Below are positions 3,415 through 22,669 of a stretch of 24,214 nt of DNA, in pieces. Each line of letters starts with the position of its first letter. The stretch's first letter is position 1. Source of the DNA: a virus; the IMG/VR virus record IMGVR_UViG_3300048921_000235, positions 1 to 24,214 of that record; one strand, written 5' to 3'. Position numbers and translations under genes: made by a program. A model generated the notes under the pieces. It was not told the origin of the DNA, made no database searches, and saw only the letters and a program-made list of their open reading frames with translations.

Positions 3415-4315
3415 CGGCGCGCCCTGGTGTAATGGTGTAACCGGTGCAATAACCGGCCTGCGTCTTATCAAGCACGATATCAACGGCCGGTTTAGTGATC
3501 TGCACGTCTTCCACCCCTTCGACTTTCAGCGCGGCGTTGATGCCGGAGCGGCGGATATTTCGACCCAGCCGCCGCATGTTTTGCACATAGGCACGTAGCC
3601 GTTTATCGGCCGTGTCGAGGATGGGCGCAACCTCCGGGCCGGGGTACAGAGACAAAACGGCCTCGATGGCGTAACGGGTAATTCTTGCAGACTGCACGGT
3701 AAGCCGATCACCAACCGGGCGCACATCTTCATCATTCAGCGCCACGCTGACAGCTTGCAACAGCTCAGGGCTGGCAGCGCCGTCGCCGTCACGCGATAAC
3801 ACCGTGACGGTCACGCTGGCCGGGGTTGGGCTGATCGCCGTCACATCGGCCACGCGGCCATCTGCCGAGCGGGCGTGAAAACGGTATGAACCGGCCGATC
3901 CCGCCGTGCTCATCCCTTCAAAAGCATCTTGCAGGCGCAGACGGTAATCCTCATCTGACTCCATGACCGCCGGTGTCGGCGGGATAGTGGTTTCATCCGC
4001 CGGAGTGATCACCAGTCGCGGGGTATTGAAATTCGCGCCGATCTGGTCAAGGTCGCTACCGGTGGCATAAGCCAGCATCAGCGCTTTAGCGGCATCGTTG
4101 ACGCGTTGACGCAAAATCACCTCACGGTAGGCGTTTTCCTGCAGCAGCTTCACGATCGGCTCAGACTCCAGCGCCAGTGTGCGACTGAGGGCTTCCCGCT
4201 GTTCCTCCGGGTAGAGCGAAATCAACGTGGCCTTACGCTCAGCCAAAATGTCTTCATAATCCACTGTCTCCACGATGAGCGGTGCGGGCAGTTGGGACAG
4301 GTCAATGGTTGCCAT
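3401..4315 (-). CDS. J: baseplate assembly protein gpJ
   Basis: The 304-residue product matches P2 gpJ (302 residues) in length and opens with MATIDLSQLPAPLIVE, a characteristic start for this family. The segment EREALSRTL.LESEPIVKLLQ and the central TPAVMESDEDYRLRLQDAFE are also typical. gpJ is an edge component of the baseplate wedge (Baseplate_J-like family), working with gpW and gpI. It starts 4 bases after the W stop and overlaps I, so it belongs to the V-W-J-I-H tail operon. The upstream ribosome binding sequence is weak, which fits coupling to W. Confidence 0.95.
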   Translation of the reverse strand: MATIDLSQLPAPLIVETVDYEDILAERKATLISLYPEEQREALSRTLALESEPIVKLLQENAYREVILRQRVNDAAKALMLAYATGSDLDQIGANFNTPRLVITPADETTIPPTPAVMESDEDYRLRLQDAFEGMSTAGSAGSYRFHARSADGRVADVTAISPTPASVTVTVLSRDGDGAASPELLQAVSVALNDEDVRPVGDRLTVQSARITRYAIEAVLSLYPGPEVAPILDTADKRLRAYVQNMRRLGRNIRRSGINAALKVEGVEDVQITKPAVDIVLDKTQAGYCTGYTITPGRADDDE

Positions 4316-4319
4316 GGTT

Positions 4320-4670
4320 TCAGCTCACAGGAACAGACAGCGACAGCGCGCCGGGGGCATCGGTGCGGGTGCCGGTGATGTCGATCACCATCTTGCCGTC
4401 GTAGGTGGTATTAAAGGTGATGCCAGTCAGTTTTACACGTGGCTCCCATGCCAGAATCGCGCTGTAACAGGCGGCCATGATTTGCAGGCGCAGCGTGTCA
4501 TTCTGCGGCTGGTCAAGCAGCGCTGACAGCAGCGAGCCATAGGCCCGGCGCATAGGGCGTGAACCCTGCGGCGTGATCAGGATGTCTGCCACGGACTGGC
4601 GAAGATGCTCGATGTCCGTCAGTGCGCGGCCGGTATCGCGGTTCATGCCAAGGTATTTCGCGTTGTTCAT
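4320..4670 (-). CDS. W: baseplate wedge subunit gpW
   Basis: The 116-residue protein aligns from memory with P2 gpW (115 residues): the start AKYLGMNRDTGRALTD, the central ILITPQGSRPMRRAYGSLL and the end PLSV-like SVPVS are conserved. It belongs to the gp25-like lysozyme-fold baseplate family, which in contractile tails bridges the wedge and sheath. It overlaps the V stop codon (ATGA), so it is translationally coupled to V. Confidence 0.95.
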   Translation of the reverse strand: MNNAKYLGMNRDTGRALTDIEHLRQSVADILITPQGSRPMRRAYGSLLSALLDQPQNDTLRLQIMAACYSAILAWEPRVKLTGITFNTTYDGKMVIDITGTRTDAPGALSLSVPVS

Positions 4671-5296
4671 GCCGGTTTATCCGTGTTACCGCCGCCGTTC
4701 TGGACGCCGCCGTGCGTATGTTTATCAACAACAATGCCGTTGGATGTGAACGATCCACCGCTGTGCTCAATGCTGCCGGTCATCTTCCCGCCCTTCAGCA
4801 CTTCCAGCGTGCCGGTAGTGAGCTTGTTCGTGCAAACCACCTCCGGCGCATCAAGGGTGATTTTGTCAGCCTTGACCATCACCACTTTGGTGCTGACGGT
4901 GATCGACTCGGACGCCTGTACGTTGGCAGTTTTTATGCCGGTAACACTCAGCGCGCCGGTTGCCGGTTCGTACTCAATTACGGCATCGTCCGGGAAGGTG
5001 ATATGTATCGCATCCGCCGAGGCCGATGGGGCCGGGAAGTCATCGGAAAAAACACCCGGCAGCACAAAGGCGGTATCCAGCTCGCCGCCCAGCGCCAGCA
5101 CTAACACTTGCTCACCTTCAGACGGTGCCCACCACACGCGGGTACGCCCGGCACGGCAGGTTAGCCAATTCAGCCAGTCGGTAAGGTTGCCTGCGGTATC
5201 GACACGGCAAAGACCGCTCTCGAGGTCGACGGCGTTCACGGTGCCAATGCGGATCAGGTTGCGCAGCAAGCGCAGGATGTCGGATTGATTTTTCAT
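4667..5296 (-). CDS. V: baseplate spike protein gpV
   Basis: The 209-residue protein corresponds to P2 gpV (211), the membrane-piercing central spike. An N-terminal OB-fold region (TRVWWAPSEGEQVLVLALGG) is followed by a triple-stranded beta-helix region (EVVCTNKLTTGTLEVLKGG). The C-terminal tip carries an HTH motif (DKHTHGGVQ) of the HxH type that binds iron in P2-family spikes. It is the first gene of the tail-tip operon. The ATG at 5296 has no visible Shine-Dalgarno sequence and no nearby alternative start in frame; compared with P2 it is a few residues shorter at the N-terminus. Confidence 0.95.
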   Translation of the reverse strand: MKNQSDILRLLRNLIRIGTVNAVDLESGLCRVDTAGNLTDWLNWLTCRAGRTRVWWAPSEGEQVLVLALGGELDTAFVLPGVFSDDFPAPSASADAIHITFPDDAVIEYEPATGALSVTGIKTANVQASESITVSTKVVMVKADKITLDAPEVVCTNKLTTGTLEVLKGGKMTGSIEHSGGSFTSNGIVVDKHTHGGVQNGGGNTDKPA

Positions 5297-5306
5297 GCTG
5301 AAAGAA

Positions 5307-5330
5307 TGCCGTTCGCCGTGGGCGACGGCA
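5307..5330 (-). promoter_or_regulatory. hairpin in V leader
   Basis: TGCCGT (5307-5312) pairs with ACGGCA (5325-5330). Inside, CGCC pairs with GGCG around a three-base loop with one bulged base. It lies 10 bases upstream of the V start, between that start and the proposed late activator site. Its role is unknown; it could shape the V promoter or its 5' leader. Confidence 0.45.
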
Positions 5331-5339
5331 ATGCTGCGG

Positions 5340-5362
5340 GGTTGGAAGATCGAACAAACAAC
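5340..5362 (-). promoter_or_regulatory. late promoter activator site upstream of V
   Basis: The segment contains GGTTGGAAGATC followed six bases later by ACAAC. The same 12-mer and ACAAC occur with almost the same spacing between O and P. Within it, TTGG-N12-ACAA is one base away from the TGT-N12-ACA dyad known for binding sites of the P2 Ogr/delta zinc-finger activators. It lies where the V operon promoter is expected. The identification is by position and by similarity between the two copies; the activator gene is outside the window. Confidence 0.6.
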
Positions 5363-5539
5363 GTATATTATATGTGAGCTCTTTTTGATTAATGACCCTA
5401 TTCGAGAGTAAGTTCAGAGATAATTCCCAAGGGCAGTAAACCAATTAGTCAGCTTTGGATATTCCCAATTTTTCAGTCGTTGAAGGCATATCGTGAAAAA
5501 TTCATAGCAACAATAATTTTACGGGCATAAGGATTAAAA

Positions 5540-6742
5540 ATGATAGATTTTAGAACTGAGGGAAAAAAAATAATATTAGAGTACACTCCTGAAATGGCCA
5601 GAACCAAGGACGTTTATGACTTACTAGAAAAACACGATACTTTTACTATTGCCAAAACATTTTATCTTTCGGAAAGAGAACTAACATCAAAATTCGACGA
5701 TGACGATTACGGAGACGTGATTGAGTTTGTCGTGGCAGAAGAAATAGGGAATTACTATAAATTTCGTGGTGAAATTCTTGGGTTGGATAAAGACGTATTT
5801 ATACACAAAGAAGTAAATTTGTCTCGAAAGGTTTTTGTTGCAGAAAGAAGAATATCAGTTTTCAAAAAGTTAGGTAAAGTAACCGACACAGACATCTACA
5901 TTGGTGGAGAAGAAACAGGAAGTATACCCTATGTAGAGTTCAAAAAATTAATCAGCAAATTTCCAAACACTAATGAACTAGATAAGTATGCTCTAGCAAG
6001 AGTAGAGTCAATTATTTCCTCATACATAGAATCAAATGGCCAACATGAAAAAAATTACCATGAGTATCTTAACAAAAAAATTGATTTGTCTGACAATAGC
6101 ATTAGCAACCAACTTGCCAACTATGAGGAATTCAAATATCAGAAGATTTTAGAAAAACTAAAAAAAATGCTAAAAAATGAAGACAAATACACTGAAAAAC
6201 AATGGCAATCTGAGATTTTGGATATCATCCTTTTGTTGTACCCAAAATATTTATATGTTTTCAATGAAGCTAAAGTAAAAGATTTTTACAGCAAAAAAAA
6301 CAGGTTCATTGACTATCTCCTCATCGATTCCTCAGGGAATATAGATATTATTGAAATAAAAAAACCCTTTGATAAGTGCATAGTTACCGAGAGAGGGTAT
6401 AGAGACAACTACATTCCATTAAGAGAGCTAAGTGGTACCGTAATGCAAATTGAGAAATACATCTTCCACCTAAGCAAGAGCGGCGACTCCGGCGAAAAAA
6501 AACTAACTCAGCAATTCAAGAATAAAATTCCTGACGACTTTGAAATAAAGATAACTAATCCCGGTGGTTTTATCATCATGGGAAGAAAATCGAACTTAAG
6601 AAAAGAACAACTACAGGACTTTGAAATAATAAAAAGAAAATATAAAAATCTGATTGATATTCTGACCTATGACGATTTAATCGAACGATTGGAGTTCATT
6701 GTAAATAAATGGTCAATTAAAAAACAACCTTCCACCATATAA
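5540..6742 (+). CDS. sduA: Shedu-family anti-phage nuclease (SduA, DUF4263-type)
   Basis: The 400-residue protein has a variable N-terminal half and a C-terminal half with the Shedu (DUF4263) PD-(D/E)XK nuclease pattern. The motifs are E225 in KQWQSEIL, D258 in FIDYLL, then E272 and K274 in IIEIKKP (D-x13-E-x-K). A helix GTVMQIEKY (Q303) and the late TYDDLIERL segment are also typical. Shedu proteins are single-gene systems that protect bacteria from phages; the N-terminal region is thought to sense the infection. All proposed catalytic residues are present, so it is probably active. The gene is strikingly AT-rich, runs opposite to its neighbours S and V and has its own ribosome binding site (AAGGA), all marks of an acquired cargo gene. 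The family call is by motif; the N-terminal domain is not assigned. Confidence 0.85.
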   Translation: MIDFRTEGKKIILEYTPEMARTKDVYDLLEKHDTFTIAKTFYLSERELTSKFDDDDYGDVIEFVVAEEIGNYYKFRGEILGLDKDVFIHKEVNLSRKVFVAERRISVFKKLGKVTDTDIYIGGEETGSIPYVEFKKLISKFPNTNELDKYALARVESIISSYIESNGQHEKNYHEYLNKKIDLSDNSISNQLANYEEFKYQKILEKLKKMLKNEDKYTEKQWQSEILDIILLLYPKYLYVFNEAKVKDFYSKKNRFIDYLLIDSSGNIDIIEIKKPFDKCIVTERGYRDNYIPLRELSGTVMQIEKYIFHLSKSGDSGEKKLTQQFKNKIPDDFEIKITNPGGFIIMGRKSNLRKEQLQDFEIIKRKYKNLIDILTYDDLIERLEFIVNKWSIKKQPSTI

Positions 6743-6745
6743 AAT

Positions 6746-6769
6746 CGCAAGCCAGTTGGCATACTTGCG
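6746..6769 (-). terminator. candidate terminator of the O-S operon
   Basis: Reading the minus strand, CGCAAG and CTTGCG form a 6-bp stem around a 12-base loop and are followed by ATTTTAT. It lies about 30 bases beyond the S stop and just past the sduA stop on the other strand. The short T run makes it only a moderate terminator. A second pairing, AGCCAG with CTGGCT, overlaps it. Confidence 0.4.
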
Positions 6770-6799
6770 CCGCTGGCTAACCATTATTAAAAACTCACA

Positions 6800-7249
6800 C
6801 TATTCGCCAAATAACAAGCAAACAATCTCACTTTCAATATCCTTCATGATATTTGTAGAAAACGCCAGCAGCGGGCGCGCCTCATATTTCACAGCTTTGC
6901 TGTGCGGTGATGGTCGGTCACGTAGGCCGTAGTGATGCACATTAGCCATTCTCCGCACACGTCCGACAAACTCCACCACGGCCGCATCACTGCTGCCCTT
7001 GGCTTTCATATAGCGCGCAGTGCGTAGCTTTGAGAACATCGCCCGATCGCGCAGGCGTTTTTTGCTGCGCAGCGATGTCTTGCGCGGCGCATAGGGTGTA
7101 CCGTCCGGTGCCTGCTGGCGCTTGATGTTCTGCTGTTGACTGGTGCGCAAGCGCCTTGACACGGCAACAGCCAGCGACTTGCGCGATTGTGGCGACAGCT
7201 TGGTAATCAGCCCGGCCAGCCGGGCGTCAAAGGGGCTAAGCTCGCTCAT
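6800..7249 (-). CDS. S: tail completion protein gpS
   Basis: A 149-residue protein matching P2 gpS (150), needed to finish the tail before joining to the head. It has the family start MSELSPFDARLAGLI, the basic segment RRLRTSQQQNIKRQQAPDG and the MANVHHYGLRDRPS motif. The ATG at 7249 is preferred; a GTG at 7258 would add three residues. It overlaps the end of R and is the last gene of the capsid-lysis operon before the sduA insertion. Confidence 0.93.
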   Translation of the reverse strand: MSELSPFDARLAGLITKLSPQSRKSLAVAVSRRLRTSQQQNIKRQQAPDGTPYAPRKTSLRSKKRLRDRAMFSKLRTARYMKAKGSSDAAVVEFVGRVRRMANVHHYGLRDRPSPHSKAVKYEARPLLAFSTNIMKDIESEIVCLLFGE

Positions 7250-15428: not shown

Positions 15429-16238
15429 TTATAATTTATCCTTATAAGCATGTTTACTATACAAATCGGTTACACCGAGCTCTATTAATTTATTTTTAAA
15501 CCCATTACTCAAACTATATTCTTGCAAAAGAGAGTACTTTTCTATCAATTTTTTTGATGCCCCCCCACGGCTCGATAAGCCATTTAGAAAAAGAGCGCCT
15601 GATTCAATTGAAGAAATTTGAGCTCTTACTAATTTAGCATATTTTATTTTTTCTTTTACGGTAAGGAAAGACGCCTCATCTATGTGCTTAAATATATGGT
15701 AAATATTTCTAAAATAATGACCAACATTAGAAAAATTACCCTCATCTAAATATACCAAATCAACAGAGGATTTTACTCTATCGACAATGGGAATTTCGTC
15801 ACTGACTTCATTCAGAAACTTGAATTTAACTTCTGTCGAATACCACTCCAGGGCATCTCTTCCTCTCACACTAAATGAACTTTCAGCATAAGAAACGTTA
15901 ATTTCAGATAAGTTATCCTTATGGAACCTTAATAATTCAAAGAGTACTGACTCAAATGATTGAATAGAGGATCGTTTTGATGTTGAATAAAGGGTCAAAC
16001 AAACCAGAACAATAGAAATAAAACTCAGTCCGGGATTAAGAACCCCACCAACATAATCACCAAACTGCCCCCATTTCTCTACTGAATCACTAACAGGAAG
16101 CTCACTAAAATGTGACCAATAATAATATAACGCGCCAACAACAAAACATGCAGCAAAAACAAAAAGAACTATAATAATAGAATGATTTATAATGCCATCT
16201 AAGAGTCTATTAAATCTTGATCTCGAACCAAAATCCAT
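15429..16238 (-). CDS. putative AbiC-type phage abortive infection membrane protein
   Basis: The 269-residue product has two membrane segments (about 18-40 and 68-85) around the family motif WGQFGDYVGGVLNP. A cytoplasmic region follows with LLRFHKDN (102-109), HYFRNIYHIFKHID (174-187) and RAQIS (205-209). This arrangement matches the putative phage abortive infection family (Pfam putAbiC). Members block phage growth in some hosts by unknown means. The ATG at 16238 is chosen because AAGGTGG lies five bases upstream; a longer frame would overlap the ASCH gene. It starts 13 bases after the ASCH stop, so the two probably form one transcription unit. It is AT-rich like the rest of the cargo. The family call is by motif memory. 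Confidence 0.8.
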   Translation of the reverse strand: MDFGSRSRFNRLLDGIINHSIIIVLFVFAACFVVGALYYYWSHFSELPVSDSVEKWGQFGDYVGGVLNPGLSFISIVLVCLTLYSTSKRSSIQSFESVLFELLRFHKDNLSEINVSYAESSFSVRGRDALEWYSTEVKFKFLNEVSDEIPIVDRVKSSVDLVYLDEGNFSNVGHYFRNIYHIFKHIDEASFLTVKEKIKYAKLVRAQISSIESGALFLNGLSSRGGASKKLIEKYSLLQEYSLSNGFKNKLIELGVTDLYSKHAYKDKL

Positions 16239-16251
16239 CTCTGCCACCTTA

Positions 16252-16620
16252 TTACAAATCCAAATCCAAAGTATAAATCCCTTTCCTTGCCCTGCATAGC
16301 ACAGGAATTTCAATCTTCCTTATATTTTTCATAACCCACAAAAAATAACCAGGCTTCCATTCTTTACTCATTGTGGTACTAGCTTCTTGATTAACAAAAA
16401 TATCTTTCGTCCAAGGAATTACGGAGGTGAAGTCGACTATTGCCATGGCTAAGCCATCATCTTCATCATCCTGACTAATCAGATACTTTTCATTTTGGAC
16501 TAAAATAACATTATTTAATGGAAGCTGTGGTGGGGTCCAAGATCTTATCTCCAGATCTTTTGATCCATTGAGAATATTATTAACTGCCGGTTTCAAAATT
16601 GATAGCGCTTGAAACTTCAT
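16252..16620 (-). CDS. ASCH-domain protein
   Basis: A 122-residue single-domain protein. It starts MKFQALSILKPAVNNILNGS and carries G19-S-K21-D-L-E24-I-R26, the G-x-K-x-x-E-x-R signature at the ligand groove of ASCH domains. It then has the strands VILVQNEKYL and AMAIVDFTSV and the late PGYFLWVMKNIR. ASCH proteins have a PUA-like fold and are thought to bind or act on RNA or modified nucleosides. The E. coli ASCH protein YqfB hydrolyses N4-acetylcytidine, but its catalytic threonine is replaced here by glutamate. The AAGGGG site six bases upstream supports the start. It leads the AbiC-like gene and is divergent from the kinase-like gene. The ligand is unknown. Confidence 0.75.
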   Translation of the reverse strand: MKFQALSILKPAVNNILNGSKDLEIRSWTPPQLPLNNVILVQNEKYLISQDDEDDGLAMAIVDFTSVIPWTKDIFVNQEASTTMSKEWKPGYFLWVMKNIRKIEIPVLCRARKGIYTLDLDL

Positions 16621-16687: not shown

Positions 16688-17209
16688 ATGTTAGTGTTTA
16701 TTGCAGGTGTTCATGGCGTTGGCAAGGGTTACTTGTGCACCCACGCAACAAATGAGTTGAATTTCTTGCACAAGAGTGCCAGTGAGCTCATAAGAGAATT
16801 TGGCGACGTTCAACTTGATAAAAATAAACTAACTGACAATATAAATAAAAATCAGTTAATACTTCTAGCAGCGCTCGCCCAATTAAAAAATGACGGGTGC
16901 GATATCCTTTTAGATGGGCATTTTACTTTACTGGGCAAGGATGGCAGCATCACCCCTCTAGATGCTGAAGTATTCAATGAAATGGCATTAGACGGTATAA
17001 TATTAGTTACAGAACCAGAAAATATAATAAAAGAGCGCATTCATTCACGAGATGGCATTGATATAGATTATGATCTCAAGAATCTTTTAAAGAGCGAAAC
17101 AGAGCATGCGAGGAAAATTTCAAATCATTTGGGCATAAAATTAATTGAACTGAACTCTCCAAGCAAAGAAGCTTTTATCGACGTACTTAAAAAGTTAAGC
17201 ACACGATAA
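16688..17209 (+). CDS. P-loop kinase-like ATPase
   Basis: A 173-residue protein with Walker A GVHGVGKG (7-14) right at the N-terminus, a second acidic motif LLDGHFTL (74-81) and a lid-like ERIHSRDGID (116-125). It resembles small nucleotide or nucleoside kinases (AAA_33/adenylate-kinase-like) found in prophage cargo. The substrate is not known. It has a strong GAGGGGAG ribosome binding site, is divergent from the ASCH/AbiC-like pair across 67 bases, and converges on the GNAT-EVE-ASCH operon. It is the only + strand gene in the cargo. Confidence 0.7.
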   Translation: MLVFIAGVHGVGKGYLCTHATNELNFLHKSASELIREFGDVQLDKNKLTDNINKNQLILLAALAQLKNDGCDILLDGHFTLLGKDGSITPLDAEVFNEMALDGIILVTEPENIIKERIHSRDGIDIDYDLKNLLKSETEHARKISNHLGIKLIELNSPSKEAFIDVLKKLSTR

Positions 17210-17228: not shown

Positions 17229-17600
17229 TTATACATATCTGAATGATTGTGGCGCAGTACCTCCCGGCACTATATCATTCAAATCAACAGGGTAATTGTA
17301 CCTTATAGGGCTTTTGACTGAAATAGCAAAAGCCTTTTCCCTTTGGTGAAAATAATTATTAAAAAATGCACGAGTAATTCCAGCATGCACCTTTGTTCTA
17401 TCCCATAGCTCAGAAGGTGATAATGCAAGAATATCTCCGACCTCAAACTCGCCAATTACCTTTCCAACAGGCATCGTTGCGTAAATTAAAACCGTGTCAA
17501 CATTTTTATTTTTGAATATGCTTTTCCGGAATTCATATTTTTTCTCGCCGTTCAATATCCTTTCCGCATACTCTGGTTTAATTGACAATAAAACTTTCAT
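17229..17600 (-). CDS. ASCH-domain protein (COG4933-like)
   Basis: A 123-residue protein starting MKVLLSIKPEYAERILNGEK with the ASCH signature G18-E-K20-K-Y-E23-F-R25. The strands VDTVLIYATMPVGKVIGEFEVGDIL follow. This is the typical pattern of single-domain ASCH/PUA-like proteins annotated as predicted transcriptional regulators. Compared with YqfB the lysine is kept but the catalytic threonine is glutamate, so a reader role is as likely as catalysis. The gene overlaps the upstream EVE-like gene by 23 bases and ends the operon, followed by a clear terminator. Close coupling suggests the three products work together. Confidence 0.75.
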   Translation of the reverse strand: MKVLLSIKPEYAERILNGEKKYEFRKSIFKNKNVDTVLIYATMPVGKVIGEFEVGDILALSPSELWDRTKVHAGITRAFFNNYFHQREKAFAISVKSPIRYNYPVDLNDIVPGGTAPQSFRYV

Positions 17601-18159
17601 CGACCCCTCCTTGAAGAACTATTTTTCTGAATGCAATATCAGTCAATGGGAGAAACCCCCAATAATCACTGTTATTGTACCCAGTAATGTTCATTATATC
17701 ATCTCGTATGACCCTAGTTTCCAGAGGGAAGTTATACGTAAAACGAACAATAATTGGATAATTTTTCTTTAAATATAAAAGATTGAGCTCATCTTCATCA
17801 AATACACTATAAGGAGCACAATATTGCTTAAATCCCTCATAGGAGGCGAACTCTCGAACATCCCTTATCTCTTGAACAACACAAACCGAGGTCGCAACTG
17901 ACCTATACTTTGCTGGCCCCTGACCATCAGAGGTGCGATATATTAACAAGTTATCCCCGGGTCTGAGTGATGACACTCCACTCATTTTTGTTAGGTATAC
18001 TTTTTCAATGCTATTAGCATGTGATACATCCTGAATTAACCTTGAGTTTTCATTATGTAACTTAGACTCCGGAAATAGCCTTGTATGCCACATAGGATAA
18101 ATGCTTAATAAAAAATTCCTTCCTTGTAACTTTATTAATGGATAGTTAGCATAGCTCAT
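17578..18159 (-). CDS. EVE/PUA-like domain protein
   Basis: A 193-residue protein whose middle (67-95) reads PGDNLLIYRTSDGQGPAKYR followed by SVATSVCVV. This is the strand-rich core expected of EVE and other PUA-superfamily domains, where a PGD turn precedes the strand lining the modified-base pocket. It ends ITGYNNSDYWGFLPLTDIAF. I cannot name the exact family; a PUA-like nucleic-acid reader is the best reading. It starts 3 bases after the GNAT stop and overlaps the ASCH gene, so all three are translationally linked. It is AT-rich, like its neighbours. Confidence 0.55.
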   Translation of the reverse strand: MSYANYPLIKLQGRNFLLSIYPMWHTRLFPESKLHNENSRLIQDVSHANSIEKVYLTKMSGVSSLRPGDNLLIYRTSDGQGPAKYRSVATSVCVVQEIRDVREFASYEGFKQYCAPYSVFDEDELNLLYLKKNYPIIVRFTYNFPLETRVIRDDIMNITGYNNSDYWGFLPLTDIAFRKIVLQGGVDESFIVN

Positions 18160-18162
18160 TAA

Positions 18163-18633
18163 TTAATCCCTCCATTCTAATTTTCTAAAGTATACACCTT
18201 CTTGTCCATTTATGGTATTGTTATTTTTCCTCGATTTAAGGACGAAGCCAAACTTTGTCAAAAGTTTTATTAAACCAGAATGTTTATCAAAAATAGTCAC
18301 GTAAATATCTTTTAGTTTATTTTTCATCGCATATTGAAAAACTATACGAACGAATCTTTCCCCAAGCTTAGTTCCGTGCGCATCTATTTTAAAAGTTCCT
18401 AACTTCACTCTTTTTTCTTTCGAAAACGATGGTGTCATATCTTCAAGAGCTTCATCTTCAACTTTCAAATAAAGAAAACCATCAATCTCACCAACATCAT
18501 TATGAGAGACGTAAGCTATATTCCTTCCCTTAGAAAGGAACCATTTATCAAATCCCTCATAGTCAGCTCTTAACGTGTTGAAAAATGGATCATTCAAGTC
18601 AACATCACAAAAATTTTTCTCTTCAATAGACAT
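18163..18633 (-). CDS. GNAT-family N-acetyltransferase
   Basis: A 156-residue protein with a GNAT layout. An N-terminal helical part is followed by strand DGFLYLKVED (51-60), strand VKLGTFKIDAH (77-87), the acetyl-CoA pyrophosphate loop region HGTKLGERFV, and the C-terminal IYVTIFDKHSGLIKLLTKFGF (110-130), which is typical of the fold. It should transfer an acetyl group from acetyl-CoA to an unknown acceptor. It is the first gene of the three-gene operon; GGAG six bases upstream supports the ATG. The next gene begins after 3 bases. From memory, longer single proteins combine a similar GNAT with PUA-like domains; if so, this is a split version. Confidence 0.75.
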   Translation of the reverse strand: MSIEEKNFCDVDLNDPFFNTLRADYEGFDKWFLSKGRNIAYVSHNDVGEIDGFLYLKVEDEALEDMTPSFSKEKRVKLGTFKIDAHGTKLGERFVRIVFQYAMKNKLKDIYVTIFDKHSGLIKLLTKFGFVLKSRKNNNTINGQEGVYFRKLEWRD

Positions 18634-18713: not shown

Positions 18714-18731
18714 TGCTATCCCCGCCTCGCC
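18713..18731 (-). other. cos: cos site (P2-type cohesive end)
   Basis: On the minus strand the 19 bases GGCGAGGCGGGGATAGCAT match the P2 cohesive end GGCGAGGCGGGGAAAGCAC at all but two positions, in the same orientation relative to Q and A. The sequence continues TGCGCTC, also P2-like. This is where gpM/gpP would cut packaged DNA to leave 19-base 5' overhangs. It places the A gene at the right end of virion DNA and the cargo at the extreme left end, before Q. Confidence 0.9.
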
Positions 18732-22154: not shown

Positions 22155-22478
22155 TTAATTCCTTATTTTAGGCAAAACGATGCACGGCGGGTTAACGCCA
22201 GAATTACTGATAAAACGCGGTAAAGTTTTTGATAAATCAATAATGTCATTAAATGCCCATATTAATTTCTGACGTTCGGTATAACTCATTTCTACAAATT
22301 TCATATTGACATGCCGCTCTTTCAATCCAGCATGAAAACAAAGCGTTCTGCGGATATGCCCCGGTGACTTATCAAAAGCCTCTTGTGCCACGTTCTTTCT
22401 ATTCACGAACAGATCCCGCTTAATCTGCGAAATGCGCTTAATGCCAATAGCTTTTTGGTCATCCGTTGCCAGTAACAT
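22155..22478 (-). CDS. DUF5347-like early protein
   Basis: From the ATG at 22478 (GGGG six bases upstream) the product has 107 residues. The core RISQIKRDLFVNRKNVAQEA, then RRTLCFHAGL, and SYTERQKLIWAFNDI resembles the DUF5347 proteins of P2-like early operons. This is a tentative assignment. Longer frames would run back through the Fil-like gene in a different frame. It ends 4 bases before the DUF2732-like start. Confidence 0.65.
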   Translation of the reverse strand: MLLATDDQKAIGIKRISQIKRDLFVNRKNVAQEAFDKSPGHIRRTLCFHAGLKERHVNMKFVEMSYTERQKLIWAFNDIIDLSKTLPRFISNSGVNPPCIVLPKIRN

Positions 22479-22489
22479 ATCAACCCCAA

Positions 22490-22669
22490 TTAGCGGCAGA
22501 ACAAACGGCGCAGCAGTTGCGCAGGTTTTGCAGTAGACAGACCGTGCAGCAATGCAGCTTGCTCGTGACGTGGCCGCCAACGTTTTCCGTCCGGTAGTTC
22601 AATAAAGCCGTTTTCAAAATGGCGCGACGGACTTTGCTGTTTCAACAGCGGGGCTATAGATATAGGCAT
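22490..22669 (-). CDS. Fil-like protein (DUF2724 family)
   Basis: A 59-residue gene with a very strong ribosome binding site (TAGGAGGG) before its ATG. The sequence HFENGFIELPDGKRWRPRHE contains the GW/GF-I-x-x-PDGKRW-x-P core of the 186 Fil / DUF2724 family. Fil expression blocks division and causes filamentation in E. coli. It starts the run of compact early genes and lies 11 bases before the DUF5347-like start. The tryptophan-rich core is visible; the family name is from memory. Confidence 0.75.
   Translation of the reverse strand: MPISIAPLLKQQSPSRHFENGFIELPDGKRWRPRHEQAALLHGLSTAKPAQLLRRLFCR

Follow-up and report, generated by a model that had tools for sequence, protein, structure and literature searches.

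Modules in which an EVE domain forms the C-terminus of a GNAT acetyltransferase, often with a PIN domain at the N-terminus, are described in the part of Bell et al. (2020, PMC7641849) that deals with them; there, an ASCH gene accompanies them almost always and an AAA_17 ATPase often, a toxin-antitoxin function is predicted for (PIN)-GNAT-EVE plus ASCH modules, the PIN-less form is given as common in beta- and gamma-proteobacterial prophages, and an earlier description is credited to Iyer et al. The PADLOC candidate system PDC-M11 consists of the same parts (M11A, GNAT-EVE; M11B, ASCH), and in the GenBank entry of Escherichia phage PhiR47_2 (PV340567) a homologous pair is labelled "GevT toxin" and "GevA antitoxin". 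A literature search found no published study behind GevT, GevA, PDC-M11 or PhiR47 and no experiments on this family; the GevT/GevA names are those of the GenBank annotation, whose basis the search did not find. Similarly named phages (PhiR40.1, PhiR47.1 and others) are present in a Nature 2026 paper, the text of which does not contain Gev.

The DNA analyzed here (the window) comes from a P2-like phage and is the 24,214 nucleotide stretch that makes up positions 1 to 24,214 of the IMG/VR virus record IMGVR_UViG_3300048921_000235. As originally predicted, it carries a GNAT, an EVE/PUA-like and an ASCH gene as open reading frames on the minus strand, the first two separated by a gap of 3 bases and the last two overlapping by 23 bases (ORF coordinates), and a gene order that is repeated across many phages, with dN/dS values well below 1, indicates that the genes are real. 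The same prediction took them to be an undescribed system; this is not the case, as the trio matches PDC-M11, the modules of Bell et al. 2020 (PMC7641849) and GevT/GevA of PV340567. The GNAT protein matches positions 11–160 (E 4e-58) and the EVE-like protein positions 166–357 (E 3e-68) of the PADLOC model PDLC04419, so that the two genes cover its complementary halves in the order expected of PDC-M11A, and the adjoining, overlapping ASCH gene matches PDLC04425 (E 8e-50) over its full length. PDC-M11A is a single protein, whereas here it is two reading frames, with a stop codon and a second start between them, and the split is kept in one clade (below). The GNAT, EVE and ASCH parts are 43%, 46% and 51% identical, respectively, to the PhiR47_2 pair, in which the ASCH start likewise overlaps the EVE end, but PhiR47_2 is a lambdoid phage and its GevT is one 357 amino acid protein. 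The modules of Bell et al. (PMC7641849) share the three domains, the prophage location and the AAA_17 neighbor with our locus; the split form, the second ASCH protein (ASCH2) and the putative abortive infection protein (putAbiC) are not described in the part of that article that covers them. The PDC-M11 models and the PhiR47_2 locus lack AAA_17, ASCH2 and putAbiC altogether. The locus thus belongs to a known family, and what is new is a stably split toxin and an under-described, conserved three-gene companion (Table 1).

Table 1. Features of the locus (window positions).
Feature	Position	Strand	Remarks
putAbiC, putative phage abortive infection protein	15429..16238	-	Pfam PF16872 6e-20
ASCH2, second ASCH protein, own subfamily	16252..16620	-	Pfam ASCH weak in the window (0.047)
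AAA_17 P-loop kinase-like protein	16688..17209	+	Pfam AAA_17 3e-15; convergent with the trio
ASCH protein, 123 aa, presumed antitoxin	17229..17600	-	homologue of GevA / PDC-M11B
EVE/PUA-like subunit, 193 aa	17578..18159	-	corresponds to the C-terminal half of GevT / PDC-M11A
GNAT acetyltransferase subunit, 156 aa	18163..18633	-	corresponds to the N-terminal half of GevT / PDC-M11A
Presumed P2-type cos core GGCGAGGCGGGG	18720..18731	-	exact match, 0.01 expected by chance

One promoter and one terminator had also been proposed for the operon. Promoter-like and terminator-like matches occur at about the level found in shuffled sequence (10 observed and 13.8 expected for the former, 4 observed and 2.7 expected for the latter), and none is correctly placed before or after the operon; no RNA families were found in the window.

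The domain assignments stand for all three proteins, through AlphaFold2 models and Foldseek for the first two and through Pfam for ASCH (E 1e-7), whose sequence also matches the solved structure of ZmASCH (5gus, E 1e-9). The models were made from alignments of the window sequence with fetched relatives. That of the GNAT protein has a pLDDT of 94, and N-acetyltransferases fill its top 50 PDB matches, among which the characterized tRNA-acetylating toxins are absent. The EVE-like model (pLDDT 87) matches ZmASCH (5y6b) first, followed by THYN1 with 5mC DNA (5j3e), the McrB N-domain (6p0f) and the EVE prototype (2eve), and the middle protein thus has the PUA-like fold that was predicted for it. It has no sequence match among solved structures; Pfam gives no significant match for the GNAT and EVE-like proteins of the window, and its EVE family is matched weakly and only by relatives. 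Residues W31, F53, K57, E59, K77, T80, K82, G91, Y111, T113 and E145 of the GNAT protein are invariant among 61 representatives, and four of them (K57, E59, K77 and K82) hint at an active site that is basic and unusual. Its acetyl-CoA loop reads HGTKLG. The tyrosine that is catalytic in many GNATs, just before the final GF motif, is absent (L125 is found at this position), and the chemistry that the protein may carry out is uncertain.

Relatives were collected as 66 loci from a scan of GTDB genomes and 80 from a scan of IMG/VR. They are not scattered singly but lie in a conserved neighborhood: 164 of 189 loci, near-copies counted, retain each of the three domains intact, and the ASCH gene nearly always follows and overlaps the EVE gene. 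In samples of species that include the centre genomes, the EVE-like gene is present in 14 of 392 genomes from the family to which the Kosakonia locus (L025) belongs; for three classes centered on other loci the figures are 10 of 391, 12 of 395 and 6 of 385 genomes. GNAT and EVE are fused in most relatives, forms of about 500 amino acids carry an N-terminal PIN domain (PIN_4, E 3e-4 in L087; PIN_3, 0.03 in L088), and in L087, from a Clostridia metagenome-assembled genome (MAG), positions 4047–5960 encode PIN, GNAT, EVE and ASCH as one 638 amino acid protein, the only such single chain seen among our loci. The defense-type role that had been proposed is supported by association. The toxin is broken beside an intact ASCH gene in 12 loci and the reverse is true in one or two; this is the direction expected of a toxin-antitoxin pair, but it is not significant after correction for length (p = 0.11–0.25). 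In L093 the ASCH gene (5518–5930) is frameshifted beside intact GNAT and EVE genes, which may go against a strict toxin-antitoxin rule, unless it is an error of sequencing.

In a tree of 81 GNAT plus EVE sequences all 17 split rows fall, with one fused row, into a single clade of P2-like Enterobacterales phages with a support of 100/100. The fused row (L004) is the Salmonella P2-like phage SopEPhi, whose orf12/orf13 lie in the same cargo site between the replication gene and portal but encode a re-fused, 369 amino acid GNAT-EVE protein and lack AAA_17, ASCH2 and putAbiC. The fewest changes that would account for this tree are two, one fission and one nested re-fusion, and the re-fusion within the split clade argues that the separate halves still act together. 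In undamaged split loci the EVE start lies close to the end of the GNAT stop codon, at most 1 base before it and at most 3 bases after it. The dN/dS values are 0.03–0.17 for both GNAT and EVE, where synonymous sites are unsaturated, so both halves of the toxin are under purifying selection. A frameshift or sequencing artefact as the source of the split is rejected, since the split is kept over about 40% protein divergence, in a clade with full support and with both halves selected. Readthrough of the stop codon to give a fused protein is likewise rejected as a general rule; GNAT and EVE are in the same frame in most split loci, but they are in different frames in L026, L027, L108, L109, L111 and L113.

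The original prediction read the trio as an acetylation-based writer/reader set aimed at phage or host RNA, in which the GNAT may acetylate a base, RNA or protein and the two PUA-fold proteins may recognize or process the product. Spelled out, the GNAT would acetylate a base, the EVE protein would read the mark and the ASCH protein would remove it in the manner of YqfB, an ASCH-fold ac4C hydrolase (PMC6972931). All three folds are indeed present, and two of the residues that YqfB catalysis requires (Lys21, Thr24, Arg26 and Glu74; PMC6972931), Lys21 and Arg26, are kept in the ASCH family motif G-x-K-x-x-E-x-R, which is found in 96 of 98 unique sequences, the other two lying outside the motif pattern. 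The nucleophile is not: in those 96 sequences the position of Thr24 is occupied by Glu, and we therefore reject a YqfB-type eraser role for the ASCH protein. In addition, YqfB enzymes bound no RNA in a published test (PMC9599836), and the nearest solved sequence relative is not YqfB but ZmASCH (PDB 5guq/5gus, under a title naming it a helix-turn-helix domain protein), a single-stranded RNA ribonuclease that binds and cleaves RNA through Tyr47, Lys53 and Ser128 (PMC5615036). In the ASCH alignment these three residues correspond to Y40, G46 and S119, so that the lysine position differs. The residues that match the RNA-cleft positions Tyr47, Tyr90, Gln127 and Ser128 (Y40, Y83, Q118 and S119) are all invariant, as are K20, E23 and R25 (56 representatives). 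Because the YqfB nucleophile is absent and these four cleft positions are invariant, an RNA-binding ASCH protein seems more likely than an ac4C hydrolase. The main analogy of the writer/reader hypothesis, YqfB, fails, and we regard an acetyl writer, reader and eraser set as unlikely.

Iyer et al. and Bell et al. (PMC7641849, in the part that treats these modules) raised the further possibility that such proteins act on DNA, with EVE and ASCH binding modified DNA and GNAT modifying bases, so that the prophage escapes restriction. EVE homologues that bind 5mC DNA are among the fold matches (5j3e, 6p0g), and the prophage location of PIN-less forms noted in that part of PMC7641849 agrees with such a role. 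ZmASCH, which cleaves single-stranded RNA, nevertheless ranks first among the fold matches of the EVE-like protein and is also the solved structure nearest in sequence to the ASCH protein, and fusions to PIN RNases also point to RNA; we consider a phage-protective DNA-targeting function quite improbable.

We favor, at a probability of roughly 0.6, a prophage-borne GevTA / PDC-M11 toxin-antitoxin or abortive infection module whose toxin is made as two proteins. The toxin-antitoxin reading is backed by the full-length PADLOC PDC-M11A/B matches and the GevT/GevA annotation in PV340567, together with the prediction and the prophage-borne PIN-less form in the relevant part of Bell et al. 2020 (PMC7641849), and it agrees better than the writer/reader model with the fusions and with how such genes are already annotated. 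The favored explanation as a whole draws on the intactness of most loci, the L087 single chain, the fully supported split clade with its re-fusion, the low dN/dS values, the mobility of the cassette (below) and the four invariant ZmASCH-cleft residues. In L087 the fusion of ASCH to the toxin in cis points to a stable complex and is at odds with a labile type II antitoxin. Aminoacyl-tRNA acetylating toxins of the TacT/AtaT type are GNATs paired with an RHH-type antitoxin; the operon described here has no RHH gene, and the partner is an ASCH protein. The GNAT subunit would transfer the acetyl group of acetyl-CoA to an RNA-linked substrate, most likely a charged tRNA or a tRNA base; charged tRNA is proposed by analogy with other GNAT toxins and after Bell et al. 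The EVE-like subunit, to judge from the fold of its model, would bind RNA and supply the targeting. The ASCH protein would sit on the toxin and keep it inactive, probably while also binding RNA in its ZmASCH-like cleft. Phage infection or another trigger would upset this balance and free the toxin from ASCH control.

The trio itself stands as predicted, but the conserved unit is not the trio alone and extends to putAbiC at 15429. The window shares with most split loci the arrangement GNAT, EVE and ASCH, followed by AAA_17 on the opposite strand and then by ASCH2 and putAbiC. From an alignment of relatives the putAbiC start is taken as a conserved ATG, 13 bases past the ASCH2 stop. The AAA_17 protein has a conserved P-loop (GxHGVGK) and LLDGHF motif and no match in named phages, and its gene also lies beside many fused GNAT-EVE genes. 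Pfam ASCH is above threshold for the ASCH2 protein of L019 (1e-4), and among viral contigs close ASCH2 relatives are found only in the six-gene cassette or in its partial copies at contig ends. A tentative extension of the favored explanation is that the six genes form one system, with AAA_17, ASCH2 and putAbiC in the pathway of the trio, supplying, for instance, a signal enzyme and a membrane effector. Of the 17 distinct split loci, 15 have AAA_17 and ASCH2, 11 have putAbiC and 10 have the complete set of six genes; in two Pantoea loci (L028, L110) GNAT, EVE, ASCH and putAbiC alone are present, and in L077, a Bacteroidales MAG, a putAbiC-AAA_17 fusion (5935–7230) directly follows GNAT-EVE-ASCH. 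This fusion is known from that one MAG, with no second full-length case among 393 genomes of its order, AAA_17 is transcribed in the opposite direction, and all split loci occupy one cargo site, so the neighbors could be co-inherited cargo. In viral contigs, 31 putAbiC relatives that are more distant have no other cassette gene nearby, and on this ground we reject putAbiC as a general partner of the trio. AAA_17, ASCH2 and putAbiC are probably an associated second arm with putAbiC as membrane effector. More doubtful is a single immune system of all six genes with two arms, a split RNA-guided acetyltransferase and the putAbiC membrane effector, each restrained by an ASCH protein of its own, and with the AAA_17 kinase as the signal or switch that connects them.

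The P2-like cargo site beside cos that had been proposed is found as such, between the replication gene and portal gene Q, where every tested split locus lies, and an exact match to GGCGAGGCGGGG, which we take to be the P2-type cos core, is nearby. The core precedes the trio in the window and follows the cassette in L023, L027, L105, L109, L111 and L168; the cassette is therefore found on either side of cos. The phage backbone of the window is closest to L026 (terminase 95%, portal 86%, repA 80%), whereas its cassette is closer to the E. coli loci L091/L092 (EVE 82–83%, versus 68% for L026), which indicates that the cassette has been transferred, as a unit, from one phage backbone to another. 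Of 5,426 complete E. coli genomes, 8 contain a match that covers at least 80% of the cassette region. Elsewhere in the window, a Shedu defense gene, SduA (5540–6742, plus strand; PADLOC E 3e-151, Pfam SduA_C 2e-34), lies amid minus-strand tail and baseplate genes and marks a second cargo site, at which E. coli L003 has a DUF6216 gene. Positions 22155–22580 (minus strand) encode a weakly DUF5347-like protein, as is found near the CII gene in other P2-like phages.

The family is widespread, in genomes of many phyla and in many temperate phages; it is a defense candidate for which a toxin-antitoxin function has been predicted since 2020, and we found no published mechanism for it. The locus adds two features to the descriptions that we found, a split GevT and a six-gene cassette. 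The AAA_17-ASCH2-putAbiC half of the cassette offers concrete candidates for missing partners, and the split is a natural experiment in which the catalytic and targeting halves of the toxin can be expressed apart, so that the role of each is directly testable.
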